A stretch of DNA of 30,067 nucleotides, taken from positions 1 to 30,067 of IMG/VR virus record IMGVR_UViG_3300005253_000413; one strand, written 5' to 3'. The stretch comes from a virus. Position 1 is the first letter of the stretch, and every line of letters starts with the position of its first letter. Positions 8,657-26,079 of this stretch are shown here, piece after piece. The notes beneath the pieces were generated by a model. It was not told the origin of the DNA, ran no database searches, and saw only the letters and a program-made list of their open reading frames with translations. The translations under genes were made by a program, and so were the position numbers.

Positions 8657-9543
8657 TTAAGCCGGCCTCGCTGACGACAGACCGTCCTCGGCCGAGTTGC
8701 CGACCCAAAGGATCCCGGCGGCAATCGTCATTTTGGCCGCGGTGATCGTCGGGGCGCCGAAGTAGCACCGGCTCACCATGCCGGTGGCGCCGGCGCGGTC
8801 GACCAGCCGGAAACCTGTCCCCAACTCGATGCCACTAGGACGACGTCAGCCATGTCGACAAAGCCATCGCCGTTGAGATCACCCAGTGATGCTACGGCAT
8901 CGCCGAAGTAATTTTCGTTGTCCAGAATGCCGGTGAAATCCACCCACAGATCGTTGACGCTGCCGGCGGCCGGATTTTGCCGCAGGTGCGCGGTCGTGAC
9001 CTCGTGGAACCAGCAGCCCCGGAGCAGGATTTGCGTCGGGAAGCCGAACAGCGAGTCGTCGAACTCCATGCCGACCAGCCCCCAGGCAAACTCACAATCA
9101 AAAAACATGAGGTTGCCGCACTGACCGCCGGCCGTTCCCTCGAGCAGCGCCAGAACATCGGAGCCGCCCTCGATCTTGCAGGCGTGGAAGCGGGACTCCT
9201 CGCTCGCCGTCAGCTGCAGCGCCGCGGCCGCGGCGGCCGCGCCGGCGATGCCGAGATTGATGACCACGACGTCGTTCACAGCGTTGATGTGGAGACCGAC
9301 GCCGGCGGCCGGATTGATCCACGCCTCGCCTCTGGCGCCGAGGCCCACCAGGGTGAGACCGGCCGTCGTGATCACGACGTTTTCGGCGTACGTCGCCGGC
9401 GCGATATAGATCACATCGCCGGGGTTCGATTTGTCAACGGCCGCCTGGATCGTGCCGCCGTTGACGTAGCGGGTGAAGCCGAACGGGTTGACGTGTCGCG
9501 GTATCGCTCCCGGAAGAACGGCGCCGCCTTCGATGATTCCCAT
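8657..9543 (-). CDS. Beta-helix capsid-associated protein with embedded dockerin-like module (frameshift near 8820)
   Basis: The gene starts at ATG 9543 (MGIIEGGAVLPGAIPRHVNP) with AGGAGA upstream, directly after the major capsid gene. Residues 25-215 look like a right-handed parallel beta-helix: GGTIQAAVDKSNPGDVIYIA, TYAENVVITTAGLTLVGLG, HINAVNDVVVINLGIAG and LFGFPTQILLRGCWFHEVTT. At about residues 219-243 comes a dockerin-type calcium loop, GDLNGDGFVDMADV, ending SSWG. The literal frame then stops at 8773. Adding one G to the GGGG at 8822-8819 continues as TGFRLVDRAGATGMVSRCYF, a further helix coil, and stops with TAA at 8657, 4 bases before the next gene. Beta-helix proteins here are usually head fibres or decorations. 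The dockerin-like part has much more A/T at third codon positions than its surroundings. Confidence 0.65.
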
Positions 9544-9593: not shown

Positions 9594-10877
9594 CTAGAGG
9601 CCGGTCGCCGTGCAGAAGGCGGCCGGGCGATAGACCACGACGGACCAGCGGCCGGAGGCCCGGATCGTCTGCAGACCGTCCCTGAAGTTGGTCCCGACGA
9701 AGCCGCGCTCGACGATGATGCCGCGCCGCTCGAACAGCGTGATCCACGGCAGCAGAAAGGAGCCGATCAACGAGGTGCCGAGGGTCAGCGTGTCGTTGGA
9801 GACCACCGGCAGGCCCCAGATCCGAGGCGGCGCCGAATCGCTCGGGCTCCCCCAGATATAGACCCCGTCAGCGGTCCGGAGCAGGCGGATATTCTGCCAG
9901 TCCGTCGGGTGCATCAGGACGTGAGTCGGGCTGGCTCGCCCGGTCACCATGACGTCCGTCATGCAGATAAAAATGGTATCCGGGACCGGCTCGCCGCCGT
10001 TGGCGTTGGTCTGGATACCGGCGACGTTGAGGATCCCCCGGAGGTTCGGCGCGGCCCCATTGCCACTGATGATCTGCTGATCGAGGCGCTGCTGCACGCC
10101 GAAGTTGAGACGGCCCTCGAGATACGAGCCGACCATGGCCACGTCCTCGAGCTGCTCGTCGGAGACCGGCACGCTGTCGGCGACCTTCCGGACCGGGCTT
10201 GTCTGCTCGGTGAGCTCGAAGCTGGACTCCGGATAGGCCCCCGCCTCGGCGGTCTCAGCCGCCGCGTGGGTCCGCACGGTCTCTTCCATGTAGAGGACCG
10301 AGGCCATGCCGGTGTTACCCATCGGCATGATGTCGATCACCTGCAGCGGGCGCGTGACGTCGGGGACGACAACGCCGGTGCGGATGGACTCCGGAGGCCA
10401 GCCGGCGGTGGTCAGGAAGTCGGCCTTGAGCTCCCGGAGGCCGATGTCCAGCTTGATCTCGGCGTCCCGCCGGGATCCCTTCTGCCAGTCCTTGAAAATA
10501 TCGGACTCGATCACCAGGTCGCCGATCGTCTTCCGCTCCTCGGGCTGGCGGGGGTCGGCGGGGAAGCCCGGCCGGTTGACCGGGGTCTCCTGGCGCTTCT
10601 TGAGATCCGCAGCGATCGCCTCGACGCCCTCCTGCTTGGTGAGGTCGTCTTGGAGCTCGGCCAGCTCGTCGTTGCGCTCGTTGACGAGCTCGATCACGCG
10701 CATACTCTTTTGCGTGCCCTCGAGCTTCGCGACGTCGTCGGGGAACCAGTCAGCCTCAGCCTTCTGGAAATCGTAGGTCTCGCCGTCGTCGGTCTTGACG
10801 GTGTTGTCGGCGAACAACTTGGCGAGCTCGGCCCGCCGGGCTCGGACCTTCTCTCGGAGTTGCTTCAGGGTCAGCAT
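9594..10877 (-). CDS. HK97-type major capsid protein
   Basis: 427 residues from ATG 10877 (MLTLKQLREKVRARRAELAK), with a GGAG ribosome site. Residues 1-110 form a charged coiled coil that matches the N-terminal delta (scaffold) domain removed by the prohead protease in HK97-like phages. The rest carries capsid-fold features: GVVVPDVTRPLQVIDIMPMG, EETVRTHAAAETAEAGAYPE, ADSVPVSDEQLEDVAMVGSY, a QQRLDQQIISGNG segment, THVLMHPTDWQNIRLLRTAD, and PPRIWGLPVVSNDTLTLGTS. Preceded by the protease and portal genes, as expected. The cleavage site cannot be fixed by eye; it should lie between the coiled coil and about residue 120. Confidence 0.93.
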   Translation of the reverse strand: MLTLKQLREKVRARRAELAKLFADNTVKTDDGETYDFQKAEADWFPDDVAKLEGTQKSMRVIELVNERNDELAELQDDLTKQEGVEAIAADLKKRQETPVNRPGFPADPRQPEERKTIGDLVIESDIFKDWQKGSRRDAEIKLDIGLRELKADFLTTAGWPPESIRTGVVVPDVTRPLQVIDIMPMGNTGMASVLYMEETVRTHAAAETAEAGAYPESSFELTEQTSPVRKVADSVPVSDEQLEDVAMVGSYLEGRLNFGVQQRLDQQIISGNGAAPNLRGILNVAGIQTNANGGEPVPDTIFICMTDVMVTGRASPTHVLMHPTDWQNIRLLRTADGVYIWGSPSDSAPPRIWGLPVVSNDTLTLGTSLIGSFLLPWITLFERRGIIVERGFVGTNFRDGLQTIRASGRWSVVVYRPAAFCTATGL

Positions 10878-10975: not shown

Positions 10976-12019
10976 CTATGCCGACGGCACCGGCTCCCGC
11001 AACGAGGTGAGCGCCAGAAACTTGGCCGCGGCCCGGGCGGCCAGGTCCTGGGGGAGCAGCTGGTCCGCCATGCCGCGGAGCTGCCCCATGGTCCGATCGA
11101 GCTCGGCAAACTGTCCCGCCATGGCCATGGCGGCCGCCTTCGAATCGGCCCCCAGGGTGCGGCCGCGCTTGCCCCGGGCGTCGACGGCGTCGAGGACGCG
11201 GGCGATCGTCGCCTCCACGTCGTAGGTGGTCAGGAGGACCTGGTCGATCAGCTTCAGGTCGTCCGGAGCTCCGCCGGCGTCGTCCTTGCCGACCGCCACG
11301 TAGGAAACATCGCGCACGACCACGGTCGCTTCGTCGCCGAAGGTGACGGTCTCGCCGTCCATGGCCCAGCTCCGCTCGAGGGTGCGGCCGGCTTCGTCGG
11401 CCCGCCGCGCGTGGTAGACCACGGCATCGTCGAAGACTGCCTCGACCCAGAGGTGCTCGAGCTCGCCCTCCACCTCGAGGAGCTCATGCTCGAGCCGCTC
11501 CCGGAGATCGTTGTCGCTCATGCCCTCGGCTTTGCGCCGCTTGACGTGCACCGTCCGGGTCCCGAGCGACGCGCCGCGGAGCACCGGGGAGACCTCCCGC
11601 TCGTCCAGCTTGATAAGCCGGCGGACCGGCTGGCCGTCGACCTGGTCGGCGCGGAAGCCGTCGGGCCCCATGATCCGGAAGCCCCAGGACCATTGTTGCA
11701 CCGGGGGCTGGACCTTCTCGAGGTCGAACTTTAGCGAGCTGTGCCAGTCGCGGGCCGCCTCGATCTCGAGGTTAAACTGGCCCGTCGCCACGGCGATGTC
11801 GCCCCGCTCCACAATCTGAGCCTTCCCCAGCGGGACGTGCTGCGAATCGTGCGCCGGCAGGACCGCGATCGGGTGGCCGCTGAAGGCCCCCCGCTCGACA
11901 ATATCGCCGTCGTGGTCGATCACTCCCAGGGTGGCTATTTCGGCTTCGAAGGATCCATCGTCGCCGGCCTGCTTGATCGTCGCGCCGACGGTCTTGTGCT
12001 CCACCTGTTTGGGCGTCAC
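10976..12019 (-). CDS. Prohead maturation protease (HK97 family)
   Basis: 347 residues from ATG 12019 (MTPKQVEHKTVGATIKQAGD). The first 180 residues match prohead proteases: FEAEIATLGVIDHDGDIVER, then LPAHDSQHVPLGKA with the candidate catalytic His (57 or 61), SWGFRIMGPDG, and LIKLDEREVSPVLRGA with candidate Ser 144. It would trim the capsid scaffold domain and itself inside the prohead. The C-terminal half (residues 180-347) is longer than in minimal proteases. It carries an acidic helical part (ERLEHELLEVEGELEHLWVE) and a helical tail that may act as internal scaffold. ATGA overlap with the small membrane protein upstream. Confidence 0.88.
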   Translation of the reverse strand: MTPKQVEHKTVGATIKQAGDDGSFEAEIATLGVIDHDGDIVERGAFSGHPIAVLPAHDSQHVPLGKAQIVERGDIAVATGQFNLEIEAARDWHSSLKFDLEKVQPPVQQWSWGFRIMGPDGFRADQVDGQPVRRLIKLDEREVSPVLRGASLGTRTVHVKRRKAEGMSDNDLRERLEHELLEVEGELEHLWVEAVFDDAVVYHARRADEAGRTLERSWAMDGETVTFGDEATVVVRDVSYVAVGKDDAGGAPDDLKLIDQVLLTTYDVEATIARVLDAVDARGKRGRTLGADSKAAAMAMAGQFAELDRTMGQLRGMADQLLPQDLAARAAAKFLALTSLREPVPSA

Positions 12020-12207
12020 GCGTCCACCTCTCTGGGTTGCTCGTTGGTCTTGAAGATCTGCCGGCGGCGCTCGAGCCGGGGGGCGAGAAAAGTAAGCCCC
12101 AGGATAACCACCAGGCCGGCGATCACCGCGGCCTCCTTGTCAGCAGCCAACCCGGTGAGGGTCACCAGGCCGGCGAGACCTCGCACGCGTTCGATCCGTG
12201 CCGTCAT
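12016..12207 (-). CDS. Small single-span membrane protein
   Basis: 63 residues from ATG 12207 (MTARIERVRGLAGLVTLTGL), with one hydrophobic segment at about residues 26-43 (AAVIAGLVVILGLTFLAP) followed by a basic stretch (RLERRRQIFK). It overlaps both neighbours by 4 bases, between portal and protease. Function unknown. A membrane protein here is not part of the standard head module; holin-like or superinfection roles are possible but unsupported. Confidence 0.65.
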   Translation of the reverse strand: MTARIERVRGLAGLVTLTGLAADKEAAVIAGLVVILGLTFLAPRLERRRQIFKTNEQPREVDA

Positions 12208-14135
12208 TGTGCTGCCGCCCCGGTCGCCTGGGCCTCCTCGAGGGCGAGCTCGTCACCCTCGATCGGCTCGACCGCTTGGCCCCGGACCTCGGCATCGGGG
12301 AAGGAGCTCGAGATCTCATCCCAGATCGTCGCCACGGCCTTGGCCGTCGCCTCCTGCCGCGGATTGATATCGGCCTCCGGGTGGCCGTCGGTGAGGACGA
12401 TCACCTCGACGCCCTCGAGCAGCTCGGCCGCGCCCTCTCCGCGCTCCCGGAGAAACTTCCGCAGCGCCCGGACGGTGGCGATCCCCTCGATCACCCAGGG
12501 CCCCGGCTGCAGCAGCCAGTGGTCGGCGACAAACTTCGAAGCCTCCGACCAGCCCAGGCCCTCGGGCAGGTAAGTGACGCCGGACTCGGGATCCTTCACC
12601 AGCCTGAGCGGGTCCGTGCAGAGTGTGGGGATCTGGTGCTCGTCCCGGAAGGCCCGAGCAACGGTCGATTTTCCGCGGCGCGGGCCGCCGACGATCACGA
12701 TCCGACGGGGTGTATTTTCCACGAGCTCGTCCTCCTGCTGCTGTTTTGTGGTCACGATCCCCAGCGGGGTGACGTGGTATTCCGGGATTAGGCCGGCCTC
12801 GAGGGCGTGGTCGAGCACCGCCAGGAGCTCGGGCGCCACCTTGCCGTTGGTGTTGGGGTCGGTGGTCCCCGGCGCGGCCGGCAGAAGGCCGGTGGCCTCG
12901 ACGCCCTGGGGGAGCAGCAGATCGGTGAAGCTCACCCGGTAGACGTTGTCCGTGTCGGTGGACTCGAAGCCGACAGGGGCCCGGGCCTCGGCGCGGGTGA
13001 TCACGCCAGCAGCGTAGAGCTCGCCCAGGCGCTTGGCCTTTGTGTCCTCATTTTCTCGGAGGGCCTCCACGCCGGTGTTGTTGAAGGCGACGGCGCCGGC
13101 GCCGAAGGCCGGGGCCAAGCTGCGCGTGATCCCGCCGGCGATGGTCGCCTGCATGGGGATAACCCCGTTGAACCAGGACAGCTGTCGGAGCTCCCGCATG
13201 GTGGCGCCGACCTTTGTCTGCTGCAGGCCGGAGCCGAAGCCGACCACGGCGGATTGCACGCCGAGCGCCGCGGTGACGCGCTCCTCGCTGATGTCCCGCA
13301 GCGGGGAGAGGTCGAGCTCCTTCGGGGAAAATCCGAATTGCTCCACCTTGGTGGGGCCAGTCATGACCATTACGCGGCCGCGGTTGTTCCGGGTGTACTG
13401 GGTTTCTATGTTGGCCTTGATCGCGTCCGCCTGGTCCTGGTCGATATCGACGTCAGAATCCGCCGGCGAGATCACGAGGCCCGGCACGCCCCCATTGCGC
13501 AGCAGCGACGCGGTGAAGACCGCGGCCTCGTTGTCTGTCCAGATCTCCCGCAGCAGCCCCTTCAGCGGGGAGATACCCAGCCGGATGTTGTCGAGGTCGA
13601 CGCCGTCGCGGAAGTGGACGACGTCCTCCGGCTCGAGCCGCTGGACCCGGCCGGCGACCTTGTACTCGTAATGCGAAATAAAGACGTCGTTACGATCGGC
13701 CGGCCACCTGGGCTCCATGTTGCTGTGGGGGGCGTACCAGAGCTCCACCGGGTCGCCCACGTCGTTGCGGGCGACCACCCAATACGCGTTTCCGTCGAGG
13801 CTCAGTGACAGGGCCACGCCGTCGAGCAGCGTCTCCCATGGATACTCGGGATTCGGCCGGGCCAGGAGGGCGCCCAGGCCGTTGCCCTCGAGGGGCTCGC
13901 CGGCACCGTCGAGGATCTGGACCGGGGCCTCCCGCATGGATTTTTGGATCCAGCGGACCGGCGTCATGAGGACGTCGGCGCCGGTGCCGTCGCCGACGTC
14001 CCGAGCCATCTCGCTGTCGCTGGCCCGATCGAAGTCGAACATGATCATGGACCGCCCGGGGAAACGGACCTGGCCCTGCAGGAGGGCCTTCAGACCAGAG
14101 GGCAATCGGTCCCGCAGCTTCGTGAACAGGCTCAC
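12204..14135 (-). CDS. Portal protein fused to P-loop nucleotide-kinase-like domain
   Basis: 643 residues from GTG 14135 (MSLFTKLRDRLPSGLKALLQ), overlapping the upstream stop as GTGA. Residues 1-430 are an HK97-type portal, the dodecameric ring through which DNA enters the head: WIQKSMREAPVQILDGAGEP, ALSLSLDGNAYWVVARND, EPEDVVHFRDG, SPLKGLLREI and a C-terminal GATMRELRQLSWFNGVIPM. From residue 472 the same frame enters a kinase-like domain: RRIVIVGGPRRGKSTVARAF with Walker A at 483-491, then TLCTDPLRLVKD, GWSEASKFVADHW, PGPWVIEGIATVRALRKFL and VEVIVLTDGHPEADINPRQE. Phages often carry this domain as a separate gene; attachment to a portal is unusual. An AGGAGG site at 12736-12731 lies 8 bases before an in-frame GTG (12722), so the 172-residue kinase part may also be made alone. 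Confidence 0.85.
   Translation of the reverse strand: MSLFTKLRDRLPSGLKALLQGQVRFPGRSMIMFDFDRASDSEMARDVGDGTGADVLMTPVRWIQKSMREAPVQILDGAGEPLEGNGLGALLARPNPEYPWETLLDGVALSLSLDGNAYWVVARNDVGDPVELWYAPHSNMEPRWPADRNDVFISHYEYKVAGRVQRLEPEDVVHFRDGVDLDNIRLGISPLKGLLREIWTDNEAAVFTASLLRNGGVPGLVISPADSDVDIDQDQADAIKANIETQYTRNNRGRVMVMTGPTKVEQFGFSPKELDLSPLRDISEERVTAALGVQSAVVGFGSGLQQTKVGATMRELRQLSWFNGVIPMQATIAGGITRSLAPAFGAGAVAFNNTGVEALRENEDTKAKRLGELYAAGVITRAEARAPVGFESTDTDNVYRVSFTDLLLPQGVEATGLLPAAPGTTDPNTNGKVAPELLAVLDHALEAGLIPEYHVTPLGIVTTKQQQEDELVENTPRRIVIVGGPRRGKSTVARAFRDEHQIPTLCTDPLRLVKDPESGVTYLPEGLGWSEASKFVADHWLLQPGPWVIEGIATVRALRKFLRERGEGAAELLEGVEVIVLTDGHPEADINPRQEATAKAVATIWDEISSSFPDAEVRGQAVEPIEGDELALEEAQATGAAAQ
12723..12736 (-). 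promoter_or_regulatory. Internal ribosome site within portal-kinase gene
   Basis: On the minus strand AGGAGG (12736-12731) precedes an in-frame GTG (12722) by 8 bases, an ideal spacing. Initiation here would give a free 172-residue P-loop protein starting at ENTPRRIVIVGG. Good Shine-Dalgarno sequences are uncommon inside genes at such a domain border, so separate translation or an ancestral gene boundary is plausible. Confidence 0.5.
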
Positions 14136-14290
14136 CGCGTCAGCTCCCGGTGGAGCTCGTCCCAGCGATCCCGATCGCGTTCGGCGATCTCGATATGAGC
14201 CGGCGTCGCCCCGGTCGCATGGCGCAACTGCTCGATCGCTTCGTCGAGCGTCAGGCGCGATCGGCCCGGCAGCTCTGAGTTATCCGTCAA
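14132..14290 (-). CDS. Small helical protein between terminase and portal
   Basis: 52 residues if translation begins at TTG 14290, which overlaps the terminase stop as TTGA. The sequence TLDEAIEQLRHATGATPAHI then EIAERDRDRWDELHRELTR looks like a genuine charged helical protein. An ATG further upstream (14338) lies within the terminase gene and is less likely. It ends in GTGA overlap with the portal. Function unknown. Confidence 0.55.
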   Translation of the reverse strand: MTDNSELPGRSRLTLDEAIEQLRHATGATPAHIEIAERDRDRWDELHRELTR

Positions 14291-15570
14291 GCCAACCCCC
14301 AGGTTTTGCGTCGTTTGGTGAGGTGCGTCAGAGCCCAAACCACAGCGTCCGCCCTGTTGGGGCTGCCGTCACCCTCATAGCCCGTCGTCGTCATATGCCG
14401 GAGCTCCTCCTCGAGGAGGTCTAGCGCGGCGCCCTTGCCGCGGCGGTGGACGACCTTTTTCTGCTCGTACAGCAGCGAGATCGGCTCAGCTCGGACGGTC
14501 TTCCCCTTTGAGGCGGTGACCACCCGGACCGGCAGATCGGGCGCTGCATTCTTGAGGGTGCTCTCCACCATAGCACCCCCGTAGTTGACCTCCGCCACCA
14601 CCACGTCGCCATGCCACTTGTCAAAGAGGTCCTTGGTGCGCCGGGCCCACTTCGCCGGCGAGCCGTGGCAGCTCCAATCATCCAGCACGATCCAGAGCTC
14701 CGGGCTGAGCTGGCCGGCGGCCACGATCCCGATCTCGTCGACCCCGCCGGAAGGGTCGACGCCGATCGCGACGCGCAGCAGGCGCTTGGCCTTGACCTTC
14801 CGATAGCGGAACACGCCCGGCAGCCATAGCGACCCCTCGACCTCGGTCGGGATCTCGCCGAAGATCTCCCGCCGCTCGAGGCTCGTCCCCTTGTAGCGGC
14901 GCTCAATCGCTGCGATGAATTCCGGCGACAGGTTGGCCGCGTTGTCGTAGGTGCTGCCGGTGGTCACCACCACGTCGCCGTCCTCGCCCGCCCGCTCGAG
15001 GAGCTCGGCGACCAGGCGGCCCGGTTTCGGCGTCGACGTCACCACCATGCGGCTGTCGCCGGCGCTCATCGAGAGGTTGAGATTGTCCCAGGCGGTGCGC
15101 GCTTTCTTGGTCGTTATCTCGTCGCCCCAGCTATCAATTTCATCAGGCCAGGCGGTGTCAAAACCGCCACCGCGGAGCGGGTGCCGGTCGGCATTCTCGG
15201 CGCTGCAGACGTAAGCAACCGCGCCGTTGGGCCAGCGGATCTCCCCCTTGCCCGGCATGTAACGCGCCGACGGGGAGACGGACAGGATCCCGCTCTCCGG
15301 GTGCTCGATCATGAGCTGGCGCACCGCGGTGGTCGTCGAGCCAACAAGGGCGATCGAGCGGCCCCTCCCGCTGTTGACCCGGTCGACGATCCAGCGGGCC
15401 GCGGTGTAGCCCTTCCCCCAGCGGCGGCCCGGATGCAGCAGCCAGACCCGCCACTTGTTGCCGGCCGGCTCCCGCTGCTCCGGGCGCCGGCTGTCGAGCT
15501 CCGTCGGGATCGCCGGCGGATCGAGTATGTCCATGGCGACGTCCGCGAAGTGAACCGGTGAGGAGCTCAC
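14287..15570 (-). CDS. terL: Terminase large subunit
   Basis: 427 residues from GTG 15570, chosen because it gives a GTGA overlap with the preceding gene; ATG 15534 is the alternative. It is the packaging motor. The ATPase domain shows WLLHPGRRWGKGYTAARW (Walker A, Lys 53) and GGFDTAWPDEIDSWGDE (Walker B, Asp 143 with catalytic Glu 144), then SRMVVTSTPKPG as the coupling motif. The C-terminal nuclease has VAIGVDPSGGVDEIGIVAAG with the first metal Asp, VVVAEVNYGGAMVESTLK, and near the end GSPNRADAVVWALTHLTK. Length is typical. It acts with the small subunit upstream and docks on the portal encoded next. Confidence 0.95.
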   Translation of the reverse strand: MSSSPVHFADVAMDILDPPAIPTELDSRRPEQREPAGNKWRVWLLHPGRRWGKGYTAARWIVDRVNSGRGRSIALVGSTTTAVRQLMIEHPESGILSVSPSARYMPGKGEIRWPNGAVAYVCSAENADRHPLRGGGFDTAWPDEIDSWGDEITTKKARTAWDNLNLSMSAGDSRMVVTSTPKPGRLVAELLERAGEDGDVVVTTGSTYDNAANLSPEFIAAIERRYKGTSLERREIFGEIPTEVEGSLWLPGVFRYRKVKAKRLLRVAIGVDPSGGVDEIGIVAAGQLSPELWIVLDDWSCHGSPAKWARRTKDLFDKWHGDVVVAEVNYGGAMVESTLKNAAPDLPVRVVTASKGKTVRAEPISLLYEQKKVVHRRGKGAALDLLEEELRHMTTTGYEGDGSPNRADAVVWALTHLTKRRKTWGLA

Positions 15571-15740
15571 CGCGGTGGCGGTGGCGGTGGCGGCACGTTG
15601 GGCTGGCCCTTCGGTGGTGGTGGCCGGACACTCCGCGGCTGGCGGCGCACGCCACCTCCGGCAGGACGCGGTGATCGCAGCGCCCAGACAATGACCAGGA
15701 GCAACAGAATCGCCGCGTAGACGTCCCACAAATCCGTCAC
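15567..15740 (-). CDS. Small membrane protein with proline-rich tail
   Basis: 57 residues from GTG 15740 (GTGA overlap). One clear membrane span at residues 8-25 (YAAILLLLVIVWALR) is followed by a basic, proline-rich tail (RPPPPKGQPNVPPPPPPPR). The proline run is coded by a GGTGGC-type short repeat around 15571-15596. It lies between small terminase and large terminase genes, overlapping both neighbours. Function unknown; a type of small envelope protein, possibly linked to lysis, cannot be excluded. Confidence 0.6.
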   Translation of the reverse strand: MTDLWDVYAAILLLLVIVWALRSPRPAGGGVRRQPRSVRPPPPKGQPNVPPPPPPPR

Positions 15741-15931
15741 GCCGGGCCCATCCACTCGATGATGCTGGCCACGTCCAGCTCGACCTTGGCGATGTGGTGC
15801 TGCTCATATAGCTGCTCATCGTCGAGCGCGATCTCGAGCACCGCGCGCCTAGCCTTTTTCTCCGTCGAGTAGATCCCGCGGACGTCGCGGCCGTAATTCT
15901 CGGCGTGCGCCAGCACCACGTAGACGGTCAT
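15737..15931 (-). CDS. Small conserved phage-type protein
   Basis: 64 residues from ATG 15931 (MTVYVVLAHAENYGRDVRGI), continuing YSTEKKARRAVLEIALDDEQ and ending ASIIEWMGPA. The pattern of a short strand (YVVLAHAEN), a GIYST turn and a helix of the form STEKKARRAV is typical of a small family seen in phages and bacteria (DUF7336-like) with unknown role. ATGA overlap with the small terminase gene and GTGA with the next gene show it is part of the same operon. Confidence 0.7.
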   Translation of the reverse strand: MTVYVVLAHAENYGRDVRGIYSTEKKARRAVLEIALDDEQLYEQHHIAKVELDVASIIEWMGPA

Positions 15932-22821: not shown

Positions 22822-23129
22822 CGCGCCGCCCGTAGAAGCCGATCGATCTCTGCCGCTATGAGCGCGCCCGCCCTCTCAAGATCTCGCACGGGGTCGCTAC
22901 TCGGTTTCCACCAGTCCTCATCGAACGGCCAAACGGATTCGGCCATCGCCCCGTACGTCGTCGTCCAATTGTCGCACTGTGCTTCCGTCGAGGCCACGCG
23001 GAGCGCATAGGCTGCCGCCGCGGCCGCGAGACAGCCGTTGCTGTGCGCGTCGTCATGTTCGGCTGTCCATCGCTCGACTTCTATTTGCCGTTGCCGCTCG
23101 GCGGCAATCCTACGGGAGCCTTCGCTCAT
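22818..23129 (-). CDS. Conserved phage protein of the AAERQRQI...WWKP type
   Basis: 103 residues from ATG 23129 (ATGA overlap). It has the features of a small protein widespread in phages: RIAAERQRQIEVERWTAEHD DAHSNGCLAAAAAAYALR, WPFDEDWWKP and DLERAGALIAAEIDRL. The role is not established in the family. The pattern of E-x-x-RQ-x-x-x-E-x-W-x-x-EHDD and WWKP with a final helix is well kept here, so the gene is intact. Confidence 0.8.
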   Translation of the reverse strand: MSEGSRRIAAERQRQIEVERWTAEHDDAHSNGCLAAAAAAYALRVASTEAQCDNWTTTYGAMAESVWPFDEDWWKPSSDPVRDLERAGALIAAEIDRLLRAAR

Positions 23130-23878
23130 CGGGCCCGCGCTCCGATCTGGCGCTCCTGATAGACCTCGATCCCGCCGACGAGCTCCTCCGCGTCCGGGCC
23201 CATCTTCCGGACCACACCGAGGACCTTCGAGCGGTCGACCTTCAGAAACCCGCGGGAGACCTTGGCCGGATCGAGGACGCGGAACTTGTAGACCGGCCTC
23301 GAGCTCACCCCGCGGGCCTTCGCCCTGGGCGCCGGCGCCGGCATGACGGGGACCGTCGGGGCGTCGAGGCGCTCGACGGCCGCCTCGAGGTGGCCCTGCT
23401 TCTCGAGGTGCTCGGCCGCGTCGAGCTGCTCCTGCTCGGCGACCTTCCGGGCGGCCGCCTGGCGCTGGCGCTCCGCCTCGGCCTCGAGGCGGTCCTGCTC
23501 GTCGTCGTAGGCGGCCAGACCACCCTTAACCAGGCGCTCCGCCTCGAGCAGCGGGTCCTCGATCGCCCTCCGCTGGGCGACGACCTCGAGGTGGGCCGCC
23601 TGGGTCTTGCGTTGCATCGGCCGCCAGGTCTCCTCGATTTTCTTTAGCGCCGGCTTGACCGTCTCGGTCAGAAAAGCGGCTGCCGCCTGATAGGTGTGGG
23701 CCTCGCGGATCGTCACGAAGCGCTCGGCCTCCACCACCACGAGGTCGGTCTCACCGGCGAGCTCGGCGAGCTCGGCGAGTTCCGCGTCCGTTTCGATCGT
23801 CGGGTCGTTGGTGCCGTCGGTCGGTGCGACGCCGGCGCCGAGGACGTCGATCTGTTGCTGGTCTTCGTGGTACGTCAT
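23126..23878 (-). CDS. Coiled-coil protein associated with phage recombination genes
   Basis: 250 residues from ATG 23878 (ATGA overlap with the 58-residue gene). The middle is a long charged helix (EDPLLEAERLVKGGLAAYDD, QDRLEAEAERQRQAAARKVA); the C-terminus is a small domain with YKFRVLDPAKVSRGFLKVDR and VVRKMGPDAEELVGGIEVYQ. Proteins of this shape are commonly found next to ERF or RecT genes, with a C-terminal P-x-x-x-L-x-x-D...V...GxxVY pattern. The role is unknown, probably in recombination or replication. The N-terminus is acidic. Confidence 0.7.
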   Translation of the reverse strand: MTYHEDQQQIDVLGAGVAPTDGTNDPTIETDAELAELAELAGETDLVVVEAERFVTIREAHTYQAAAAFLTETVKPALKKIEETWRPMQRKTQAAHLEVVAQRRAIEDPLLEAERLVKGGLAAYDDEQDRLEAEAERQRQAAARKVAEQEQLDAAEHLEKQGHLEAAVERLDAPTVPVMPAPAPRAKARGVSSRPVYKFRVLDPAKVSRGFLKVDRSKVLGVVRKMGPDAEELVGGIEVYQERQIGARAR

Positions 23879-24695: not shown

Positions 24696-25652
24696 TCACT
24701 TGATCGGGCCGTGGGTCTGAAACCAGCGGACGGTCGCCTCGTACGCGTCGCCCAGACTGGGGATCTCGGACGCCCGCATTGATAGCACGCGCACGACCTC
24801 GTTGTCCACGTCCTCCCGCCTCCACCCGTTCTTACTCGCGAAGTTATAGAGGCGGCCTTGCTGGGTGGTGCTGATCGTCTGCTCCCGGTCGCCCGGAAAC
24901 ATGGCCATGACCTCGTGGAGCTCCTCGACCTCGAGGACGTCGCCGGGCCCGTTGGCGCCAGCGCCAGGCTCCTGACCCTGGGCCCGCGGCTGCTCGAGCG
25001 GTCGCTGCTGCGCTGGGGCACCGCCGGCGCCGTCGTCGTCCTTGCCGGCTGCGATGCCGATTGCCGCCTTGAGTGTGTACCGCTGTAGATAGGAAACGGT
25101 CGACGCGATCGCCTGGATCGCGTTCTTACTTCCGGTGGTATCCGGCGGCCCGAATAGGCTCGCCTCCTCACTGTGGCCGGCCGCGTGGGTGACGATACAG
25201 GTCACCTTGATGAGGTCCGGCGTGTCCTGCTCGATGCTCCACCGGAAGGAGAGGCCGTGTTGCGCCATCACCGGGGAGAGATCCTCGACCATGGTCGCCA
25301 GCGCCTCGTGGCGGTAGGAGACGCGGCCGGCTTTCTTCGTTGGGTAGTCGACGATCTCGGTCTTGACGACCTCGGGAAGGTCAGCGCGGAGCGCCGAGAC
25401 CGCGGCGTTATATTCCTGCCGCGCCAGGCCGGCCTGGTAGCGTTCGTGGACGGCCAGCAGCCGCTCGATCACCTCGACGTCGACGCCGGAGCTCACGGCA
25501 TCGCCGAGGATCCGCATCAGGGCGACACCGGGATCCTCGTCCGGGTCGGCGTCGATGGCCTCGGCCTCGAGCGTCTCGGATGATTCGTCGACGTCGTCGA
25601 CGAGCTCGGCCTCGAGGACCTGGTCCTCCGGCTCCTTGGTCTGTTCTTCCAT
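24696..25652 (-). CDS. erf: ERF-family single-strand annealing protein
   Basis: 318 residues from ATG 25652 with AAGGAGG upstream. An acidic start (EAELVDDVDESSETLEAEAI) is followed by the ERF core: AVHERYQAGLARQEYNAAVS, LPEVVKTEIVDYPTKKAGRV SYRHEALATMVEDLSP, LSFRWSIEQD and AIASTVSYLQRYTLKAAIGI. The YLQRY-x-L motif near the end of the core is characteristic. A linker (QQRPLEQPRAQGQEP) leads to a C-terminal domain (QGRLYNFASKNGWRREDVDN) of unknown role. Such proteins anneal complementary strands and drive phage recombination. Neighbouring exonuclease and coiled-coil genes complete the module. Confidence 0.9.
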   Translation of the reverse strand: MEEQTKEPEDQVLEAELVDDVDESSETLEAEAIDADPDEDPGVALMRILGDAVSSGVDVEVIERLLAVHERYQAGLARQEYNAAVSALRADLPEVVKTEIVDYPTKKAGRVSYRHEALATMVEDLSPVMAQHGLSFRWSIEQDTPDLIKVTCIVTHAAGHSEEASLFGPPDTTGSKNAIQAIASTVSYLQRYTLKAAIGIAAGKDDDGAGGAPAQQRPLEQPRAQGQEPGAGANGPGDVLEVEELHEVMAMFPGDREQTISTTQQGRLYNFASKNGWRREDVDNEVVRVLSMRASEIPSLGDAYEATVRWFQTHGPIK

Positions 25653-25670
25653 GGGTTGCCTCCTTCTCGG

Positions 25671-25708
25671 CCGGCGTTGGTGCCGGCGCGGTGGTGAGAG
25701 TCTACGCG
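25671..25708. promoter_or_regulatory. Hairpin and TCTACGCG site upstream of erf
   Basis: A GCCGGC / GCCGGC hairpin (25671-25688, 6-base loop) sits between the previous gene's stop and the erf ribosome site. TCTACGCG at 25701-25708 overlaps the stop codon of that gene, about 50 bases before the erf start. The same octamer occurs at other unit starts, so a regulator binding site is possible. Confidence 0.35.
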
Positions 25709-26079
25709 TGGCGGCCGCGGCCGTCCACGGATTCCCGGCGGTATCTCCGGGCCAGCATGATGACGCGTCGGCGAGCTCCGCCGAGTTGGCGGCCGGCGGC
25801 CAAGACAGCCCGGTGACGGACCGCCCGGCGCTGACAGCCAGGGCACAACGCCCAGAAGGGGAGCAGCTCCACCACCGGCTCCGGCGGAGATCCCACGGAC
25901 CTGGTCCGGGTCTGTTTCCAGCACGGCTCGACGAAGGACCGGCCACCGCCGGAGACGTTGGACTCTCGCCAACAGCGGCAGCGGTTTCGGGCCTTAAAAG
26001 CGGCGGCCTGCCGCTCCCGGTGTCGGTCCACCTCGACGGCCGCGCGGCCGATCCGGGCGAGCTCCTCGAGGCCGTTCAT
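25702..26079 (-). CDS. Cys-rich basic protein, probable zinc binder
   Basis: 125 residues from ATG 26079 (ATGA overlap; the frame is open to 26166). It is rich in Arg and Cys: FKARNRCRCWRESNVSG, SFVEPCWKQTRTRSVGS and FWALCPGCQRRAVRHRAVL. The CxC, C and CxxC groups could bind one or two zinc ions. It ends RYRRESVDGRGRHA. DNA or RNA binding seems likely from charge, but no family is recognised. Confidence 0.6.
   Translation of the reverse strand: MNGLEELARIGRAAVEVDRHRERQAAAFKARNRCRCWRESNVSGGGRSFVEPCWKQTRTRSVGSPPEPVVELLPFWALCPGCQRRAVRHRAVLAAGRQLGGARRRVIMLARRYRRESVDGRGRHA

Follow-up and report, generated by a model that had tools for sequence, protein, structure and literature searches.

A phage portal protein fused to a P-loop kinase-fold domain, a candidate module of the phage head

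Enzymatic domains on portal and MuF proteins

The closest described counterparts of the gene analyzed in this study are the portal::MuF fusions, in which a PF04860 portal is followed by PF04233, as in the PHROG 2662-like proteins of Sinorhizobium phage Aussie and Microcystis phage Mwe-Yong1. Their portals belong to the same family as the portal of the window, that is, the whole analyzed stretch of 30,067 nucleotides (IMG/VR virus record IMGVR_UViG_3300005253_000413), and are 37-41% identical to it. The gene order is the same, and in both cases a C-terminal domain follows the portal core; this domain is MuF in the portal::MuF fusions, whereas in the window it has a P-loop kinase fold.

PBECR, 2H, Nudix, and ART domains fused to portal or MuF proteins were described by Iyer et al. 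2017, 2022 (PMC5512222, PMC9503650), where they are interpreted as packaged and injected effectors. Like these head-packaged effectors, the window protein has an enzyme-fold domain on a portal and is encoded in the terminase-portal region, but the fold differs, and a P-loop kinase on a portal is not mentioned in the portions of the two papers available. PMC5512222 also reports a zeta-toxin-like P-loop kinase joined to MuF in phages. It resembles the window protein in combining a P-loop kinase with a head protein, but the partner in the window is the portal itself, and the zeta-toxin profile PF06414 is absent from the Pfam matches of the window domain up to an E-value of 10, a range where the HMMER filters may drop very weak matches. 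The small P-loop kinases, such as the gluconate, shikimate, adenylate, and polynucleotide kinases, share the fold and the Walker A motif with the window domain, which, unlike them, has no conserved LID arginine and is fused to a portal.

Thus an enzymatic domain on a portal is of a known kind, portal- and MuF-fused enzymes having been described in principle. In the literature searched, we found neither the present domain family, nor its exchange with MuF, nor one module on two unrelated portals. A literature search for a portal-kinase fusion found none, and no usable paper came from a search for PF06381 portals with anti-CBASS Acb1 domains.

Structure of the fused reading frame

The fused portal::P-loop ORF (12204..14135, minus strand) starts with GTG and encodes 643 amino acids in a single uninterrupted frame. 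In its full-length AlphaFold2 model (mean pLDDT 84.5), an ordered core at residues ~40-405 and another domain, likewise ordered, at residues ~476-620 are separated by a linker of low confidence. The sole Pfam domain seen in the ORF, PF04860 (Phage_portal), spans residues 58-386 with an E-value of 5.5e-45 and 154.4 bits, compared to the curated cut-off of 39.1, and PF04233 is absent after the portal core. The core itself (residues 40-405; 12921..14018, minus strand) has the HK97/GTA portal fold, the top Foldseek matches (E-value 1.6e-17) being the HK97 portal (8cez/8fql) and then the GTA portal (6te8). The linker (residues 406-471; 12723..12920, minus strand) is predicted to be mostly flexible. 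The GC3 content is alike over the join (0.89 in the portal, 0.91 in the linker, and 0.86 in the P-loop part), and no in-frame stop codon separates the two domains. The ORF is a genuine fusion of a complete HK97-type portal with a P-loop kinase-fold domain, as proposed in the initial annotation and borne out by the PF04860 match, the Walker A motif, and the AlphaFold2 domain. The fusion is beyond chance: full-length homologues of the P-loop region make up one family, which is joined to another portal in three independent contigs. Within the linker, residues 434-462 (12750-12836, minus strand) form a small predicted helix and a hairpin, for which a search for homologues found none.

The P-loop kinase-fold domain comprises residues 472-643 (12207..12722, minus strand; ordered at ~476-620), as delimited by AlphaFold2, fold matches, and the family alignment. 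Residue 472, earlier taken as its beginning, is an in-frame GTG codon, and the P-loop itself lies further downstream: the Walker A motif GGPRRGKST occupies residues 483-491 (12663..12689, minus strand), and its Gly488 and Lys489 are invariant in 75 family sequences. The other motifs noted earlier, CTDPLR, GPWVIEG, and a late helix with a glutamine, are all present and, like Walker A, coincide with strongly conserved columns of the family. The hallmarks of these 75 sequences further include an acidic residue ending the second strand, which is Asp508 in the window, as well as Glu550 and Arg556, both invariant, and the near-invariant Arg559 and Gln594, the two arginines being located in the helix that follows the third strand. 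The window domain retains the Walker A lysine, the acidic residues, and the arginines intact, and has Thr597 and Ala600 at the positions of the family Met and Gly.

The AlphaFold2 model of the isolated domain (pLDDT 87.7, pTM 0.79) resembles gluconate, adenylate, and shikimate kinases with Z-scores of 8-10, all tied, and also polynucleotide kinases acting on nucleic-acid ends (Z about 8), the sequence identity to small P-loop kinases of similar fold being 11-22%. The domain shares with the P-loop small-molecule/nucleotide kinase superfamily a GxxxxGK[ST] Walker A motif on a kinase-type alpha/beta fold, and the model points to a P-loop kinase fold, from which the substrate is not readable. No family of PHROG, Pfam, or NCBIfam covers the domain past the P-loop, and the dNMP-kinase, thymidylate-kinase, and shikimate-kinase profiles have no match beyond it. 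For instance, the phage dNMP kinase family phrog_139 matches domain residues 10-36 only, with an E-value of 0.2, and a sequence search against solved structures produced P-loop matches only. Phosphotransfer by the domain is uncertain, since the loop before Gln594, corresponding to the LID position, contains no arginine conserved across the family.

Related portals and the P-loop family

Neither the domain nor the whole ORF, when used as a single query sequence, had any match in the scans of viral contigs, so that alignment-based scans were required; these yielded 79 loci with related portals. Most of the complete related-portal ORFs have an extension of 240-300 amino acids after the portal, and there are no P-loops among those. 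In the tested cases the extension is Phage_Mu_F (PF04233) by Pfam, above the curated cut-off in L085, L052, and L030, and below it in Aussie, Mwe-Yong1, L007, and L177. All five nearest portals (L177, L178, L007, L179, and L181; 53-58% identical) end in a MuF-like domain, and among the related portals scanned the window ORF is the only PF04860 portal with the P-loop domain. Elsewhere in the window, MuF has one sub-threshold match only (E-value 0.012, 11 bits), which is not convincing. Since the nearest portals have MuF at this position and no convincing MuF exists in the window, sequence comparison indicates that the P-loop domain stands in the MuF slot, that is, that it replaced MuF. The suggestion that the closest portal relatives also carry the P-loop was rejected, as these portals run into MuF. 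A 909-residue portal relative in L051 (5830-8556) has a tail of ~450 residues in which Pfam identifies neither MuF nor a P-loop domain, and which is possibly another occupant of the slot.

Alignment scans of IMG/VR for the domain retrieved 13 and then 80 loci, and about 75 distinct family members were found, almost all of them metagenomic. Most are free proteins of about 120-170 residues encoded near portal and terminase genes. The single match in 50,697 phage records, UOF77383.1 of Caudoviricetes MW202476.1, belongs to the same family as the window domain, but is a free gene, annotated with an unrelated name, which overlaps the 3' end of a DUF4055-type portal gene. In 84,980 reference genomes the domain occurs in one Phycisphaerales MAG, where the carrier is probably a phage contig; 199 genomes of the same phylum contain no further carrier, and a tblastn search against plasmids found none. 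At 51 of 76 distinct loci, a gene for a portal, terminase, MuF, or scaffold protein lies within 4 kb on the same strand, a count which includes L107-type "portals" called from position and weak PHROG matches and many short contigs; at 27 of the 76 a portal lies within 500 bases. The assignment of the L107-type genes was not supported when their profiles were compared to those of known portals. In L091, L108, L129, and L138, the free P-loop gene is located between the portal and MuF genes, and about one third of the free members are away from packaging genes, some adjoining an exonuclease or endolysin gene. Judging from these gene contexts, it is a portal-associated phage family without a name or assigned function.

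Several family members are fused to head proteins. In L099, L100, and L101, ORFs of 680-733 residues combine an N-terminal PF06381 portal (Phage_portal_3) with a C-terminal P-loop domain; the PF06381 portals of the isolated phages examined have about 480-530 residues, and some have a separate MuF gene adjoining. The view of the initial annotation that no portal carries such a domain was thus too strong. Related genomes do not always have two genes here: the P-loop relatives occur both fused and free, and a fusion of this kind is found in other contigs, though with PF06381 portals and not among the five nearest portals with their MuF domains. In L167, a MuF domain (PF04233, E-value 3.9e-15) is followed by the P-loop domain. 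In the near-identical genes of L111 (3281-4501) and L112 (4992-6212), the P-loop domain is N-terminal to a scaffolding protein (phrog_206, E-value 2.6e-38), and an internal Met could yield the scaffold alone. Genes of this P-loop::scaffold type, in which a putative internal start precedes the scaffold, resemble nested protease/scaffold genes. A similar P-loop and scaffold-like layout is found in L162 (4938-6272), although none of the PHROG families matches its scaffold part. In L109, L132, L117, and L153, the long frames upstream appear to be out-of-frame readings of neighbouring genes and were excluded from the fusions.

In the maximum-likelihood tree of the P-loop domains, which is built on few columns and has many unresolved forks outside this group, the four portal-fused domains form one clade (100/89), with the window domain sister to that of L099 (99/92), to which it is 60% identical over 126 columns. 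The window portal has no BLAST similarity to the portals of L099-L101. The tree and this comparison would be explained best if the fused form arose once and the tail module was then passed from one portal to another, unrelated one; repeated recruitment from closely related free genes is a less favoured possibility.

Proposed role and alternative explanations

We think it somewhat probable that the P-loop module, which replaces MuF at the C-terminus of the portal, is located in the head interior, acts as a head-packaged enzyme, and was moved by recombination. Portal C-termini form a crown, which in the capsid is turned towards the DNA (PMC10541612), and the C-terminal fusion would therefore place about twelve copies of the domain inside the head at the portal vertex. 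There they would bind nucleotide and act as a packaged enzyme, a role favoured by analogy with the portal- and MuF-fused effectors of PMC5512222 and PMC9503650. Most likely, the domain would serve as an early effector during genome delivery, its target being a nucleotide or some other small molecule of the host or its defences, which it would modify after release by linker cleavage or while at the vertex. The neighbouring S78-like prohead protease (10976..12019, minus strand; phrog_80, E-value 1.3e-10) could in principle cut the domain loose, and the module itself would have moved between unrelated portals by recombination. In support of a head module, the family is fused to two portal families, MuF, and scaffold, and is found in the neighbourhood of packaging genes. 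The weak point is that a domain tethered to the portal ring must be cut off for injection, a cleavage that is hypothetical here. The free members away from packaging genes (about one third), the single PF04860 case, and the lack of a conserved LID arginine, along with Thr597 and Ala600 in the window copy, also count against the packaged enzyme.

The more general proposal, that this unnamed family is a mobile head module repeatedly joined to proteins of the procapsid interior and forms a ring of some twelve nucleotide-using enzymes at the vertex, acting at delivery or packaging, is plausible, though we hold it with a little less than even confidence. If true, the cargo attached to the portal vertex of tailed phages would gain a new class of enzymes, and the portal C-terminus would be an exchangeable slot, in which MuF gives way to a kinase-like module and one module serves two unrelated portals. 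It would also provide leads to the function of a family whose members come, in this analysis, almost exclusively from metagenomes, and make it testable whether a portal-tethered enzyme works without leaving the head.

Another possibility, which we regard as rather unlikely, is that both forms are made, a fused portal and a free 19 kDa kinase-like protein, which would be the working form in the cytoplasm, the fusion being a recent loss of the portal stop codon. The AGGAGG and in-frame GTG reported earlier at the border are indeed present: AGGAGG (12731..12736, minus strand), a possible internal ribosome site, is 8 nt upstream of the GTG codon 472 (12720..12722, minus strand), from which a free form of 172 residues could start. 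Free homologues begin exactly at this position, e.g., with MRRIVIVGG or MSKRIVIVGG, and L167 has an ATG at the domain border, where the upstream sequence is weaker. However, the site is weak evidence of use, since about 30% of codon-shuffled copies of the gene that keep the protein have an AGGAGG/start site, and a comparable internal site occurs in three of ten other window ORFs tested. Further, no start with a good ribosome site is present at the domain border in L099-L101, and the nearest portals of the window continue into MuF rather than ending there. Given the protein sequence, the site does not exceed chance expectation, so that a free form from GTG 472 is possible at most.

The main alternative to an enzyme acting at delivery is a factor of assembly or packaging that stays in the head, where nucleotide binding or hydrolysis tethered to the portal would aid in forming the portal ring, in scaffold exit, in the handling of DNA ends, or in headful sensing. 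It agrees with the fusion partners, since portal, MuF, and scaffold are all assembly components, with the location of genes between terminase, portal, and MuF, and with the similarity of the fold to polynucleotide kinases. We nevertheless consider such a factor unlikely: most relatives do without the P-loop, having MuF instead, the family is sporadic, and none of the tied kinase-fold matches singles out DNA ends.

Less probable still is an accidental fusion with an ordinary nucleotide kinase gene whose product plays no part in the head. Free dNMP kinase genes are common in phages, and the domain does have the P-loop kinase fold, but the dNMP-, thymidylate-, and shikimate-kinase profiles stop at the P-loop, and accident hardly explains why the family is joined to two portal families, MuF, and scaffold. 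A stray inserted nucleotide kinase is likewise at odds with a domain that occupies the MuF slot and comes from a portal-associated family.

Finally, an artefact of sequencing or assembly joining two genes, which might be suspected in a metagenomic contig with the single PF04860 portal of this kind, is very improbable given the similar GC3, the comparable fusions of three unrelated contigs, and flanking genes that match the same relatives on both sides. The gene order is that expected for an HK97-type portal, with the terminase upstream and the protease and capsid genes downstream. The terminase large subunit (14287..15819, minus strand) is 71% identical to that of L181, and the HK97-type major capsid protein (9594..10877, minus strand) is 64% identical to that of L177. 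The terminase, portal core, protease, capsid, and the next gene all have their nearest relatives in the same few contigs (L177, L178, L179, and L181), and this collinear arrangement, which extends to either side of the C-terminal domain, renders both a chimeric contig and a frame error unlikely.

Between the portal and protease genes, a 63-residue ORF with a hydrophobic stretch (12016..12207, minus strand) overlaps the portal stop by a few bases and has no family match. Past the capsid gene, a 256-residue ORF (8773-9543, minus strand) is 79% identical over 141 residues to its counterpart in L177 and matches no Pfam or PHROG family. The tRNA and Rfam scans of the window had zero matches. Further along the window, an exonuclease-like gene and a gene for an Erf-like single-strand annealing protein (23126-23878 and 24696-25946, minus strand) constitute a phage recombination pair.
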